DNA of 64,000 nucleotides, taken from assembly GCA_029782355.1 (NCBI GenBank), contig JAKOUY010000016.1, positions 248,001-312,000 of the forward strand, written 5' to 3'. This DNA is from Actinomycetes bacterium. Lineage in GTDB: Bacteria; Actinomycetota; Acidimicrobiia; Acidimicrobiales; Ilumatobacteraceae. A program made the translations under genes and the position numbers. The notes beneath the pieces are model-generated. The model ran no database searches, had not been told where the DNA came from, and worked only from the letters and a program-made list of their open reading frames with translations. Below, one piece after another: positions 47,688 through 57,374 of the stretch; the first letter of the stretch is position 1; the number at the start of each line of letters is the position of its first letter.

Positions 47688-50162
47688 ATGTCTGACACCC
47701 CCACCCCCACCGGCCCGGCGGCCGACGGCGGCGACGACGGCGAGCGCCTGGCCGTCGAGCCGATCCAGCTCCAGGACGAGATGGAGCGCAGCTTCCTCGA
47801 CTACGCCATGTCGGTCATCATGGCCCGGGCCCTGCCCGACGTTCGTGACGGGCTCAAGCCGGTGCACCGCCGGATCATCTGGGACATGGAGGAGCAGGGC
47901 TTCCGCCCCAACCGCCCCTACGTCAAGTCGGCCCGCGTCACCGGCGACACGATGGCCAAGTTCCACCCCCACGGCGATTCGGCGATCTACGACGCCCTGG
48001 TGCGCATGGCCCAGCCGTTCTCCCTGCGCCACCCGCTGATCGACTTCCACGGCAACTACGGATCTCCCGACTTCTCCGCGGCGGCGTCGCGCTACACCGA
48101 GTGCCGGTTGGACCCGCTGGCGATGGAGATGCTGGCCGACATCGACGAGGACACCGTCGACATGGTCCGGAACTACGACGACTCGCTCGACGAGCCGACG
48201 GTGCTGCCGGCGCGGTTCCCCAACCTGCTGGTCAACGGCAGCCAGGGCATCGCCGTGGGCATGGCGACGAACATCCCCCCGCACAACCTCGGCGAGGTGA
48301 TCGATGCCACCATCCACCTGATCGACCATCCCGAGGCCACCCCCGACGACCTGATGCACTTCGTCAAGGGCCCGGACTTCCCGACCGGCGGGCAGATTCT
48401 CGGGCGGGCCGGGATGATCGAGGCCTACCGCACCGGGCGGGGCAGCATCAAGATGCGGGCCACGGCCACCATCGAGGAGACCAAGCGCGGCGGGTTCCAG
48501 ATCATCGTCAGCGAGCTGCCCTACCAGGCCAGCTGCGAGGCCATCTCCCGGCGGATCCAGGAACTCGTCGACGCTGGCGAGCTGGACGGGATCAGCGACG
48601 TCAACGACAGCTCGGCCGGCGGCAAGACGAAGCTGGTGGTCACGCTGAAGCGCGACGGCAACGCCAACGTGGTGCTCAACAACCTGTTCAAGATGACCCA
48701 GCTGCAGACCAGCTTCGGGGTCAACATGGTCGCCCTGGTCGACGGGGTGCCGCGCACGCTGAACCTGGCCGACGCCCTGGCCGGCTACATCCGTCACCAG
48801 ATCGACGTCATCACCCGGCGCACCGAGCATCGCCTCGCCGAGGCCAAGCGCCGCCTGCACATCTACGAGGGCCGGCACAAGGCGCTGAACGTGATCGATG
48901 CGATCATCGCGCTGATCCGGGCCAGCGACGACACCGCCGCGGCGCGCGCCGGGCTGATGGCGCCGCCCTTCGAGTTCTCCGAGCTGCAGGCCAACGACAT
49001 CCTCGAGATGCGTCTCGGCCAGCTCACCAAGCTCAGCCGGATCGACATCGAGGCCGAGATCGAGTCGCTGAAGGTCAAGATCACCGAGCTGCAGGGCATC
49101 CTCGACGATCCGGTGGTGCTGCGCGGCGTGATCAAGACCGAGCTGGCCGCGGTGAAGGAACGCTTCGCCACGCCACGGGTCTGCCAGGTCACCCTGGACA
49201 CCGGCGACATGAGCGTCGAGGACCTGGTCGAGGACAAGGAACTGGTCATCGTCATGACCCAGGCCCAGTACGTCAAGGCCGTGCCGGCCGGGTCGTTCAA
49301 GACCCAGGGCCGCGGCGGGCGGGGCGTGTCGGGCGCCAAGTTGAAGGCCGACGACATCGTCCGCAACGTCATCTTCACGACCGCCCACGCCTACCTGCTG
49401 TTCTTCTCCAACCGCGGCAAGGTCTACCGGTTGCGCGCCCTGGACATCCCCGAGCGGGAGCGCACGGCCAAGGGCATGCCCATCGTCAACCTCCTGCCCC
49501 TGCAAGCCGGGGAGACCATCGAGGCCATCATCGACACCCGCGACTTCGCCGGCGAGCGCTACCTGTTCTTCGCCACCCGCCAGGGCGTGGTCAAGAAGAC
49601 GGCGTTCAACGAGTACGACAACGGCCGGCGCGACGGATTGATCGCCGTCAACCTGCGTGACGGCGACGAGTTGGTCCGGGTGATCGAGACCAGCGGCACC
49701 GACGACATCTTCATGGTCAGCCGCACGGGCATGACCATCCGCTTCAACGAGGACGAGGTTCGGGCCATGGGCCGGGCCGCGGCCGGGGTGCGCGGCATGA
49801 AGCTGAAGCCGGGCGACGAGGTGGTGTCCGTCGACGTCGCCCGTGACGACACCGCCATCCTGATGGTCACCGAGGCCGGGTACGGCAAGCGCACCCAGCT
49901 GGACCGCTTCAACGTCCAGGGCCGCGGCGGCCAGGGCGTCATCGGGATCCGCCTGACCGGCAAGAAGGGTCAGGTGGTGGCGGCGTTCATGGTCGGCCTG
50001 GACGACGACATCGTCGCCGTGTCCGATGCCGGCGTGACCATCCGGATGAACGTGCGCGAGATCTCCTCCCAGGGTCGCGACGCCACCGGGGTCCGGGTGA
50101 TGAACCTGGACAACGGCCAGACGGTCGCCTCGGTCGCCCCGATCCTGTCCAGCGACGAGTAG
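47688..50162 (+). CDS. gyrA: DNA gyrase subunit A
   Basis: An 824-residue breakage-reunion subunit. The catalytic Tyr is in RYTECRL near residue 136. The quinolone-determining region reads [12 protein letters not shown], with the Ser and Asp residues typical of susceptible enzymes. C-terminal beta-pinwheel repeats include the GyrA-box-like QGRGGRG and QGRGGQG. It follows gyrB by 17 bases. No intein. Confidence 0.98.
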
Positions 50163-50281: not shown

Positions 50282-50596
50282 ATGCGACGCACGTCCGATC
50301 GGGGTCAGGCGATGCCTCTCGTTCTCGTCATCGTGGCACTGTCCGTGGTGGCGGCAGTTGCCGCCGGGGTCGCAGCCGGCGAGGTGACCAAGCGAGGGCG
50401 CGCCCAGGCTGCGGCCGATGCCGCAGCCCTCGCCGGACTCGATGGCGGACAGCCGGCCGCAGCCGGCTTGGCGGCGCGCAACGGGGCCGTGCTGACCTCC
50501 TTCGTCCGGATCGGTGCGGTGGTGACCGTGACGGTCGAGGTCGACGGCATTGGCGCGTCGGCCCGGGCCTCGAACGGCCCGGGCCCCGCCCCGTGA
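50282..50596 (+). CDS. TadE/TadG-like small membrane protein
   Basis: A 104-residue protein starting RRTSDRGQAMPLVLVIVAL, a pilin-like motif and membrane helix (about residues 8-35), followed by RGRAQAAADAAALAGL as in putative Flp-pilus TadE/G-like proteins. GGAGGTG precedes the ATG at good spacing. It usually belongs to a tad secretion cluster, but none is present here, so it appears solitary. Its stop lies directly before the tandem-repeat locus. Confidence 0.75.
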   Translation: MRRTSDRGQAMPLVLVIVALSVVAAVAAGVAAGEVTKRGRAQAAADAAALAGLDGGQPAAAGLAARNGAVLTSFVRIGAVVTVTVEVDGIGASARASNGPGPAP

Positions 50597-50600
50597 CGAC

Positions 50601-50708
50601 GCCCACCCGCCGTCCCCCTGGCCTCGCCCACCCGCCGTCCCCCTGGCCTCGCCCACCCGCCTGTCCCGTGAGCGCCCTCGCCCGTCCCGTCCCGTGAGCG
50701 CCCTCGCC
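50601..50708. repeat. short tandem repeats (25- and 26-bp periods)
   Basis: A 25-bp unit beginning GCCCACCCGCCGTCCCCCTG occurs at 50601-50625 and 50626-50650 with a partial third copy. Then a 20-bp unit beginning GTCCCGTGAGCG occurs at 50663-50682 and 50689-50708. C-rich minisatellite-like sequence, not coding. Confidence 0.85.
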
Positions 50709-50710
50709 GC

Positions 50711-51085
50711 CCGTCTGCGTTGCGGCGGACCCATGGGCGCGCAATGTGCCGATCGTGCACGTTGTGGTCCCCATGGGGGCGGGAGTGGTCGGTCGGGCGC
50801 TGGCGAGGTGGCGTCGCCGCTCGGCGCGTCCCGTGGTGTCGCTCGCCTGCTCGTCTGCGTTGTGGCGGACCCATGGGCGCGCAATGTGCCGATCGTGCAC
50901 GTTGTGGTCCCCATGGGGGTGGGAGTGGTCGGTCGGGCGCTGGCGAGGTGGCGTCGCCGCCTGGCGCGTCCCGTGGCGTCGCTGACCTGCTCGTCTGCGT
51001 TGTGGCGGACCCATGGGCGCGCAATGTGCCGATCGTGCACGTTGTGGTCTCCATGGGGGCGGGAGTGGTCGGTCGAGCGCCGGCC
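50711..51085. repeat. 140-bp tandem repeat with conserved extended hairpin (2.7 copies)
   Basis: Copies start near 50711, 50851 and 50991, exactly 140 bp apart, and differ by only a few bases; the third stops after about 95 bp. Each holds a long imperfect hairpin: outer arms CCCATGGG (50730-50737 and 50770-50777 in copy 1), inner arms CAATGTGC and GCACGTTG, and loop CGATCGT. In copy 3 an outer-arm C-to-T change is tolerated by a G-U pair. No conserved reading frame with a plausible start serves all copies. The next 67 bases to the DUF3566 start hold only its -10-like CATACT. Confidence 0.85.
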
Positions 51086-51152
51086 CGGGACCACCGGCCG
51101 CCACCCGACGGTGCGACGCCCCGGCGCGCGACCCGGCTGCCATACTTGCCGG

Positions 51153-52538
51153 GTGGATTCCGCCTCCGACCTCGGGGTCGGCTCCGACTCGACCGCTGCC
51201 GACGGCAACGGTGCGGTTCGTCGGGCGATCGATCCGATCGTCGCCCAGCTGAGCCCTGGTCGCCCGGACTCGCCGGCGCTGCCGGCTGTGGAGGCGGCGG
51301 TGGCGTTGCCGGCGGGGTCGCCGGCCGAGGATCGCACCGAACCGCTGCCGCGGCCGATCGACGTGCTCGAGCTGCCGTCGGCGGCACCGGCCGATGACGC
51401 GGCCGACCTCGAGCCGATCGCGCCCGCCGAGGCGCGGCCGATCGCCCTCGGCGTGGCCGACGCGGACGACGTCGGGGAGACGCTCGGCGGCGAGACCGAG
51501 GCGGCTCCGCAGACCGCCGGGGTCGAGTCCGGCACGACCGATCGAGCGGATCCGGCTGGCGCCGATGTGCCGGCGGACCAGCCCGACGAGGCTGCCGCCG
51601 ACGGGGCGAGCAGCGAGCCCGTCGAGCCGCCGGTCGAGGCTCGTCCCTCGCTCGTTCCGCCCCCACCGAATCCAGAGGCCTTCGACGACGACGCCCTGGC
51701 ACAGTCCGTGGGACTGTTCGACCCGGTGAGCGGGCCGACTGCCGCTGCCCCCGCCGAGGACCCCGTGGTCCTGCTCGACCCGCAGGCCGCCGCCGCTGGC
51801 GTCGCCGCTGGCGTCGCCGCTGCTGGGGTGGGAGCTGCCGGGGCCTCGGCCGCTCCAGCGGTTGCGCCACCCGCCACGCCGTCGGCTCGCTCGGTCCCGC
51901 CGGCCGCCCCGCCACGTCCGGCCGTGCCCGTCGTTCCGGCCGGCGGCGCCCCGCCGCGCCGCCCGGCGATCGCCCCGGCTGACCCGGACTCCACCGGCGA
52001 GATCATGAAGCGGCCGCAGCGTCCGGCGCGCCCGCTGCAGCAGCCGGTCGCCGTCCGGCGCCCACCGCGCAGCCGCGTCCGGCGGGTCACGCGTGTCGTG
52101 CGCAGCCTGGACACGTGGAGCGTGTTCAAGGTGGCGGCCATCTTCAACCTGTTCATGCTCGTCGTCACCCTGACCACCGGCGTGCTCCTCTGGAAGGTGG
52201 CCGTCGCCACCGGGACGATCGACAACGTCGAGCGTGGCTTCGAGAACGTCGGCTGGCAGGTCATCGACCTGAAGAGCAAGGGCGGGGAGATCTTCCGCAA
52301 CGCGCTCATTGCCGGACTGTTCGTGGCCATTGGCCTCACCGGCCTGGCCGTCATGTTGGCCACGCTGTTCAACCTGATCACCGATCTGGTCGGTGGGATT
52401 CGCGTCACCGTGCTGGAGGAAGAGGTCCGCACCAAGGACGAGCGGCCCCCGATGGTCGTCCAGCAGCGGCCCGGCCAACCGGTCGGTCAGCCGACCCGTC
52501 CCGCCGTCCGCCAGCCGGGAGCCCCGCCCGGCGGTTGA
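51153..52538 (+). CDS. DUF3566 membrane protein with long disordered N-terminus
   Basis: A 461-residue protein. The C-terminal third is the DUF3566 domain found downstream of gyrA in actinobacteria (Rv0007 type), with two helices near residues 325-350 and 383-410. The first 300 residues are low-complexity: acidic, then Ala/Pro-rich, and probably disordered. GTG 51153 follows CATACT with a six-base gap. In other actinobacteria the family has been linked to polar growth and envelope functions; the role here is unproven. Confidence 0.85.
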   Translation: MDSASDLGVGSDSTAADGNGAVRRAIDPIVAQLSPGRPDSPALPAVEAAVALPAGSPAEDRTEPLPRPIDVLELPSAAPADDAADLEPIAPAEARPIALGVADADDVGETLGGETEAAPQTAGVESGTTDRADPAGADVPADQPDEAAADGASSEPVEPPVEARPSLVPPPPNPEAFDDDALAQSVGLFDPVSGPTAAAPAEDPVVLLDPQAAAAGVAAGVAAAGVGAAGASAAPAVAPPATPSARSVPPAAPPRPAVPVVPAGGAPPRRPAIAPADPDSTGEIMKRPQRPARPLQQPVAVRRPPRSRVRRVTRVVRSLDTWSVFKVAAIFNLFMLVVTLTTGVLLWKVAVATGTIDNVERGFENVGWQVIDLKSKGGEIFRNALIAGLFVAIGLTGLAVMLATLFNLITDLVGGIRVTVLEEEVRTKDERPPMVVQQRPGQPVGQPTRPAVRQPGAPPGG

Positions 52539-57279: not shown

Positions 57280-57374
57280 GGCGGGGAGCGGCGGGAGCGG
57301 GGAGTGGCGGGAGCGGGGAGCGGGGCGGCGGGAGGTGGGAGCGGGGAGGCGGGAGCGGGGGCACAATGGGGGGC
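57280..57374 (+). repeat. G-rich low-complexity tract upstream of LLM gene
   Basis: Imperfect repeats of GGGAGCGGGGAG-type sequence with more than ten runs of three or more G on the plus strand, reaching to the start codon of the LLM gene. It is capable in principle of G-quadruplex formation in DNA or in the mRNA leader. Confidence 0.7.

Follow-up and report, generated by a model that had tools for sequence, protein, structure and literature searches.

What are the three tandem copies of a 140-bp repeat that lie between the gyrase genes and a DUF3566 gene in the 64,000-nucleotide stretch of actinomycete DNA analysed here (hereafter, the window), and is their position beside gyrase meaningful? 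The observation made in the earlier note, which described three copies at an exact 140-bp period with nested inverted arms, is confirmed. The copies occupy 50709-50848, 50849-50988 and 50989-51128, with 94% and 75% identity of the second and third to the first, the third diverging after about 51084. The inverted arms are as described, and the direct sub-repeat is present as GTTGYGG...CCCATGGG, copy 1 having GTTGCGG. The single C-to-T change in copy 3 (51050) does keep a possible G-U pair, although the proposal that pairing is preserved fails when tested across the family (see below). Each copy contains one 74-bp imperfect palindrome, that is, two inverted half-sites of the CCCATGGGCGCG type 40 bp apart, and the features of the locus are as follows.

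47688-50162, plus strand: gyrA, the upstream neighbour.
50333-50596, plus strand: a small open reading frame (ORF) upstream of the array, start uncertain, without a Pfam family.
50717-50790, plus strand: palindromic unit 1 (74 bp; half-site cores CCCATGGG at 50730 and 50770; profile score 66).
50791-50856, no strand: array-specific spacer 1 (66 bp), duplicated with the unit and differing from spacer 2 at 5 of 66 positions.
50857-50930, plus strand: palindromic unit 2 (cores at 50870 and 50910; profile score 68).
50931-50996, no strand: array-specific spacer 2 (66 bp).
50997-51070, plus strand: palindromic unit 3 (core at 51010; the right core reads TCCATGGG at 51050; profile score 62).
51288-52538, plus strand: the DUF3566 gene downstream of the array, start uncertain.

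The identity of the DUF3566 gene is confirmed by Pfam, whereas the small upstream ORF, scanned as an 87-aa version (50333-50593), had no Pfam hit, and its description as TadE-like in the earlier note is not confirmed. The array is not coding, as the note had judged: a period of 140 bp places successive copies in different frames, and although the DUF3566 reading frame stays open through the whole array (ORF 50550-52538, TTG start), as GC-rich DNA allows, our codon-usage gene prediction does not call it coding there. Other short tandem repeats (25-26 bp and 7/14/21 bp periods) lie at 50600-50715, directly before the array, and at 57281-57360.

We first asked whether the repeat is confined to this site, a test that the earlier note had itself set, and found that it is one of dozens of dispersed copies. 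A search of the window's own genome (G000; 3.79 Mb, 40 contigs) with the first unit gave 109 matches at E <= 10, many of them weak, with no convincing match of the spacer elsewhere in the genome, and the exact pattern CCCATGGG-N28-36-CCCATGGG occurs 71 times in the genome, against 0 for the reversed control. A sequence model of 38 units (alignment A1, model R1) gave 157 matches at E <= 0.01, both strands counted and hence most places twice. In the loci analysed in detail, an ungapped profile found 77 units in 33 clusters of 1-4 units, 7 of them single units, with a best score on the reversed sequences of -10.4 against a threshold of 18; this count omits places at C6:1841 and C20:39610-39841 (contig:position in G000) that model R1 finds. 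The geometry is fixed, given that 58 CCCATGGG pairs are exactly 40 bp apart, 1 is at 38 and 1 at 41, other distances being scattered. The conserved ends of the unit are G at column 1 and C at column 74, and columns 71-74 read mostly GGTC, with CGTC only in a minority; there is thus no GTAG or CGTC consensus tag. Spacers are array-specific and, in 14 of the 16 neighbour pairs compared, alignable with the next spacer, which rules out a CRISPR (that is, identical repeats with unique spacers), although in some clusters neighbouring units differ strongly and are not simple duplicates.

None of the 33 clusters overlaps a predicted gene; 13 lie between convergent, 15 between co-directional and 5 between divergent genes, whereas 63 of 361 neighbouring gene pairs in the same loci are convergent (P = 0.0024). 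This background comes from loci chosen around arrays, and the gene calls were made with our own codon-usage script instead of a standard gene finder, trained on G000 also where it was applied to other genomes. Of 65 flanking genes, 40 were compared with Pfam: 35 matched diverse families (for example, cpn60, GMP synthase, DNA polymerase III alpha and DUF3566) and 5 matched none. Among 30 loci, taken from 58 genomes matching the C-terminal part of gyrA, none of 28 relatives has the unit at the gyrA downstream site (of the other two loci, one was too short and one was from the own genome). The gyrase neighbourhood is therefore incidental.

The element does not behave as RNA. The two halves of a unit are no more complementary than halves from different arrays (21.2 against 22.7 of 37; random orientation, one unit per array, 28 arrays), and on A1 the pairing is below shuffles (69.5% against 72.7%, 500 of 500 shuffles at least as high), although unit orientation in A1 was chosen by likelihood, which biases this second test against pairing. 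RNAalifold gave a covariation term of -0.01 and 0 of 12 predicted pairs with both sides changed, no Rfam family matched at the gathering threshold, and none of the 77 units has TTTT beside it. Between clear tandem copies, in contrast, the 24 arm positions vary less (5 of 192) than inner (17 of 192), outer (23 of 208) and spacer (17 of 292) positions (arms against the rest, 5 of 192 against 57 of 692, P = 0.003). Symmetry is thus kept half-site by half-site, as would be expected of a site bound by a protein dimer, which is an inference.

With R1, 5 of 397 genomes of the order match at E <= 1e-4, the own one included, and a loose doublet pattern finds 6 of 397 (of which G053 looks like chance) and 5 of 396 in the phylum (of which G561 and G699 look like chance). 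Look-alikes with a 41-bp spacing occur in three further genomes, G032 (2), G009 (1) and G079 (2). Genome G292 has 78 matches of 48-49 bp near-perfect hairpins (loci L161, L165, L168, L170, L171, L177, L181, L183, L185, L202 and L203), which form three subfamilies among the 50 examined (inner arms AATTGTTCGCG, TAAGGGCGCG and CAATGCACCGG) and, in the 10 contexts examined, lie between genes and often within 30 bp of a gene end. Within these subfamilies own halves are no more complementary than others (fractions of shuffles reaching the observed value 0.16, 0.26 and 0.94), and homology to the G000 element is unproven. Around the R1 match at G282:C12:3743-3795 (locus L163) lies a 33-bp tandem repeat with CCCATGGGTCCTCCGCGAGCGGGAGTGACCGTG. 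A strict doublet pattern run over the GTDB contigs gave 48 stretches, of which 47 (L082-L129 except L105) are from Gamma- and Betaproteobacteria (mostly Luteimonas mephitis, with Luteimonas, Lysobacter, Pseudoxanthomonas, Thermomonas, Gallionellaceae and others represented) and have GTAGGAGCGC-like ends, mostly as GTAGGAGCGC-CCCATGGGCGCG doublets, and loops of variable length; we take these for look-alike GTAG-type REPs (repetitive extragenic palindromes) sharing the core of this element and did not count them as relatives. The remaining stretch, from one actinomycete MAG (L105), has the two cores in direct, not inverted, order and no nuclease homologue in the stretch examined. As no viral contig carries the strict doublet, a phage origin was rejected.

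If the element is dispersed, which gene might be its partner? The transposase of known REPINs (that is, doublets of REPs), the RAYT with its Y1_Tnp domain (PF01797), is absent from 6 of 6 genomes searched, G292 among them, whereas control genomes gave matches. Among the 33 clusters, only one gene lies closely between two of them: the G000 gene at L053:3499-4401, with a unit upstream and an array starting at its stop codon, encodes a 300-aa protein with matches to AbiEi_4 (E 7e-8) and MTES_1575 (E 1.7e-5, below the cut-off), that is, a probable DNA-cutting enzyme of the DUF559/MTES_1575 (Vsr-like) type with an AbiEi-like N-terminus. In G032, a genome of another genus, the two places of the doublet pattern flank one gene, 51% identical to the G000 gene over 298 aa. 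As both cases were noticed because of the elements, we then examined homologues found by protein similarity alone. The single hit in the plasmid collection, a DUF559 gene of Tsukamurella tyrosinosolvens (27% identity), has TGCGGTGGAT-21-ATCCACCGCA on both sides; a second G000 homologue, on the same contig, is flanked by TTCTGTGGAG...CTCCACAGAA, one copy overlapping the end of the reading frame; and in 1.6 Mb of sampled stretches (G000 0.4, G018 0.2, G038 0.6 and G011 0.4 Mb) there were three more, all in G038, flanked by three different palindromes. The palindromes of these five genes are 41-49 bp long.

With one fixed test (a palindrome in each flank with arms alike at 8 of 9 positions), 7 of 7 genes pass, against 29 of 1235 control genes from G000, G018, G038 and G011 only, and for the five found by homology Fisher P = 1.1e-8. 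By an alignment score that asks for a match in both orientations, 6 of 7 reach 19, against 3 of 1235 controls, whereas one gene (L290) has a score of 13, which is reached by 129 of 1235 controls. Two of those three controls are a repeat region in G018, with long near-identical inverted repeats (GTCGGTTGATGTC...) around two genes with SpaA-like domains and weak LPXTG-anchor matches (L266:9514-12805), and the third is a nitrilase-type (carbon-nitrogen hydrolase) gene in G011 (L302:3685-5010) with another REPIN-like palindrome (about GTTTYGCCCCT...GGGGCRAAAC) on both sides; flanking alone is therefore not proof. The association was not seen for four short DUF559 genes on Bacillota plasmids and one AbiEi gene beside its toxin in Thermus (0 of 5), the look-alike elements of G079 and G009 have no such gene within the 8.5 kb examined, and two close element pairs of G292 enclose genes without a tblastn match to the nuclease. 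A stand-alone DUF559 gene of Luteimonas mephitis (L094:1516-2075), examined after the pattern was known, passes the test and is surrounded by three copies of a CCCTCTCC...GGAGAGGG palindrome that recurs in other proteobacterial records (7 in 378 kb; scrambled arms mean 0.5, maximum 7 of 200 trials). Homologues of the nuclease were absent from viral contigs; plasmids gave 1 record for the first G000 gene and none for the second, phages gave 1 partial match, and of the 15 plasmid records matched by the Tsukamurella protein we examined 6.

Three of these other palindromes are also seen elsewhere in their genomes. The Tsukamurella element is found at 7 places in 3 records of one strain at E <= 10 (of the copies inspected, two flank the gene, one lies between convergent and one between divergent genes), the same search listing 33 further records with partial matches in other genera, mostly Sinorhizobium. 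The G038 TGGCACGCG family has 3 copies at its gene and 5 elsewhere in 0.6 Mb, two of them in tandem, one further pattern match (L295) looking like chance, and the second G000 family has 4 further copies in about 0.83 Mb; the other two G038 palindromes were seen only at their genes. Across the seven proteins, E198, D230, E241, H248 and D257 (numbering of the G000 protein) are invariant. DUF559 is above its Pfam cut-off in 5 of 7 (L290 and L293 among those above it), the first G000 gene and that of G032 matching MTES_1575 and DUF559 only below the cut-offs, and an AbiEi-like N-terminus is detected in 5 of 7 (not in L240 and L290). A profile of the seven matches PDB 3hrl (E 1.2e-7) and, weakly, 3r3p, a mobile intron protein (E 0.01), and PvuRts1I (E 0.012); three more hits with E above 0.1 look unrelated.

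On the basis of these observations, we suggest that the array is a three-copy tandem cluster of a REPIN-like element, a short non-coding palindromic DNA element dispersed through intergenic DNA, whose partner is a Vsr-like nuclease in place of a RAYT. The analysis itself establishes the dispersal, the fixed geometry, the enrichment between convergent genes, the local tandem duplication together with the spacer, the absence of covariation and the flanking of a DUF559/MTES_1575-type nuclease gene on both sides. It is only inferred, in contrast, that this predicted nuclease, whose domain resembles Vsr/EDxHD enzymes, binds the doublet as a dimer with one subunit per half-site, nicks or cuts DNA there, and so spreads or maintains the element by repair or copying, as RAYTs are proposed to do for REPINs. 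In this view tandem clusters arise by local duplication, and the copy set in the window probably has no role specific to gyrase. We are confident that the element is REPIN-like, consider it only somewhat more likely than not that the flanked nuclease is its partner in spreading, and hold the joint statement, in its weaker form with the mechanism inferred, with moderate confidence. The interpretation in the earlier note is thus partly supported: of the three options it offered, a mobile palindromic (REP-like) element is supported by the many dispersed copies, movement itself being inferred; a structured RNA array is not supported; and, in place of a protein-binding array tied to the gyrase operon, binding by a protein remains likely but probably, by inference, by the element's own partner nuclease.

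Four alternatives can be considered. The one that survives best, although we consider it unlikely, is a REP-like element that spreads with an unknown or lost transposase, the nuclease gene being just another neighbour; REP families without a dedicated transposase are described (CGTC REPs; PMC3733652) and Y1_Tnp is absent here, but all seven long nuclease genes are flanked, each by its own palindrome, including the five found without regard to flanks. Less likely still is a host-encoded DNA-binding site (for a nucleoid protein or gyrase) selected at convergent 3' ends, which would fit the fixed geometry, the absence of covariation, the low variation of the arms and the convergent preference, but the element is matched in only 5 of 397 genomes of the order, whereas gyrase and most nucleoid proteins are conserved. 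A bidirectional terminator or an mRNA 3'-end stabilizing hairpin is very unlikely: the arm hairpin (pair 16-59) is in the predicted fold of 33 (plus strand) and 35 (minus strand) of 38 units and many clusters follow a stop codon, but the T-run is missing and the pairing tests speak against it. A trans-acting or cis-regulatory structured RNA array is least likely of all: the fold of one 140-nt copy is somewhat more stable than shuffles on the plus strand (z -2.15; minus strand z -0.29), but neither an Rfam family nor covariation was found.

A bolder reading, which we regard as possible but tentative, is that there exists a separate class of bacterial mobile palindromes in which each family is paired with, and moved by, its own Vsr/EDxHD-like nuclease acting as a dimer on the doublet; such a class would have evolved independently of RAYT-REPIN, would be widespread among relatives of this organism and in Tsukamurella, and may extend to Proteobacteria, given the flanked Luteimonas gene. 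Many bacterial palindrome families have no known enzyme, and a nuclease family that is regularly flanked by its own palindromes offers a concrete, testable partner for them, would give a function to DUF559-type proteins now annotated as unknown or as antitoxin-like, and would be a second, unrelated solution to what RAYTs are thought to do for REPINs. Literature searches for a link between DUF559/Vsr-like proteins and palindromes, and for REPs or palindromes in Actinobacteria or Acidimicrobiia, gave none that we recognized as such among the open-licence papers covered.

Compared with known systems, mycobacterial MIRU-VNTR loci are likewise dispersed tandem intergenic repeats, and are not known to be built on a fixed-geometry palindrome. 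The EDxHD homing endonuclease I-Bth0305I (PDB 3r3p), to which the nuclease domain has its weak profile match, is said to dimerise on a target of nearly 60 bp (PMC3943268), and a doublet with fixed spacing would, by inference, suit such a dimer; that enzyme is, however, intron-encoded and is not known to be linked to dispersed palindromes. The GTAG and CGTC REP superfamilies are also short extragenic palindromes placed between convergent and unidirectional genes, and CGTC REPs have no known transposase, but neither consensus tag is present here; both are placed mainly in Proteobacteria, and untagged REP-like families are mentioned, among others, in M. tuberculosis (PMC3733652). REPINs and their RAYTs (PMC3116915, PMC2817692) share with the present element two inverted palindromic half-sites at fixed spacing, the extragenic location, ordered tandem clusters of nearly identical units including flanks, several families per genome and a gene flanked by the cognate palindromes, but differ in spacing (peaks of 71 and 110 bp in P. 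fluorescens against 40 bp here), in the GTAG tag, which is not a consensus here, and in the flanked gene, which here encodes a DUF559/Vsr-like nuclease and not a Y1 tyrosine transposase; so the element works like a REPIN family but is not a RAYT-REPIN family.
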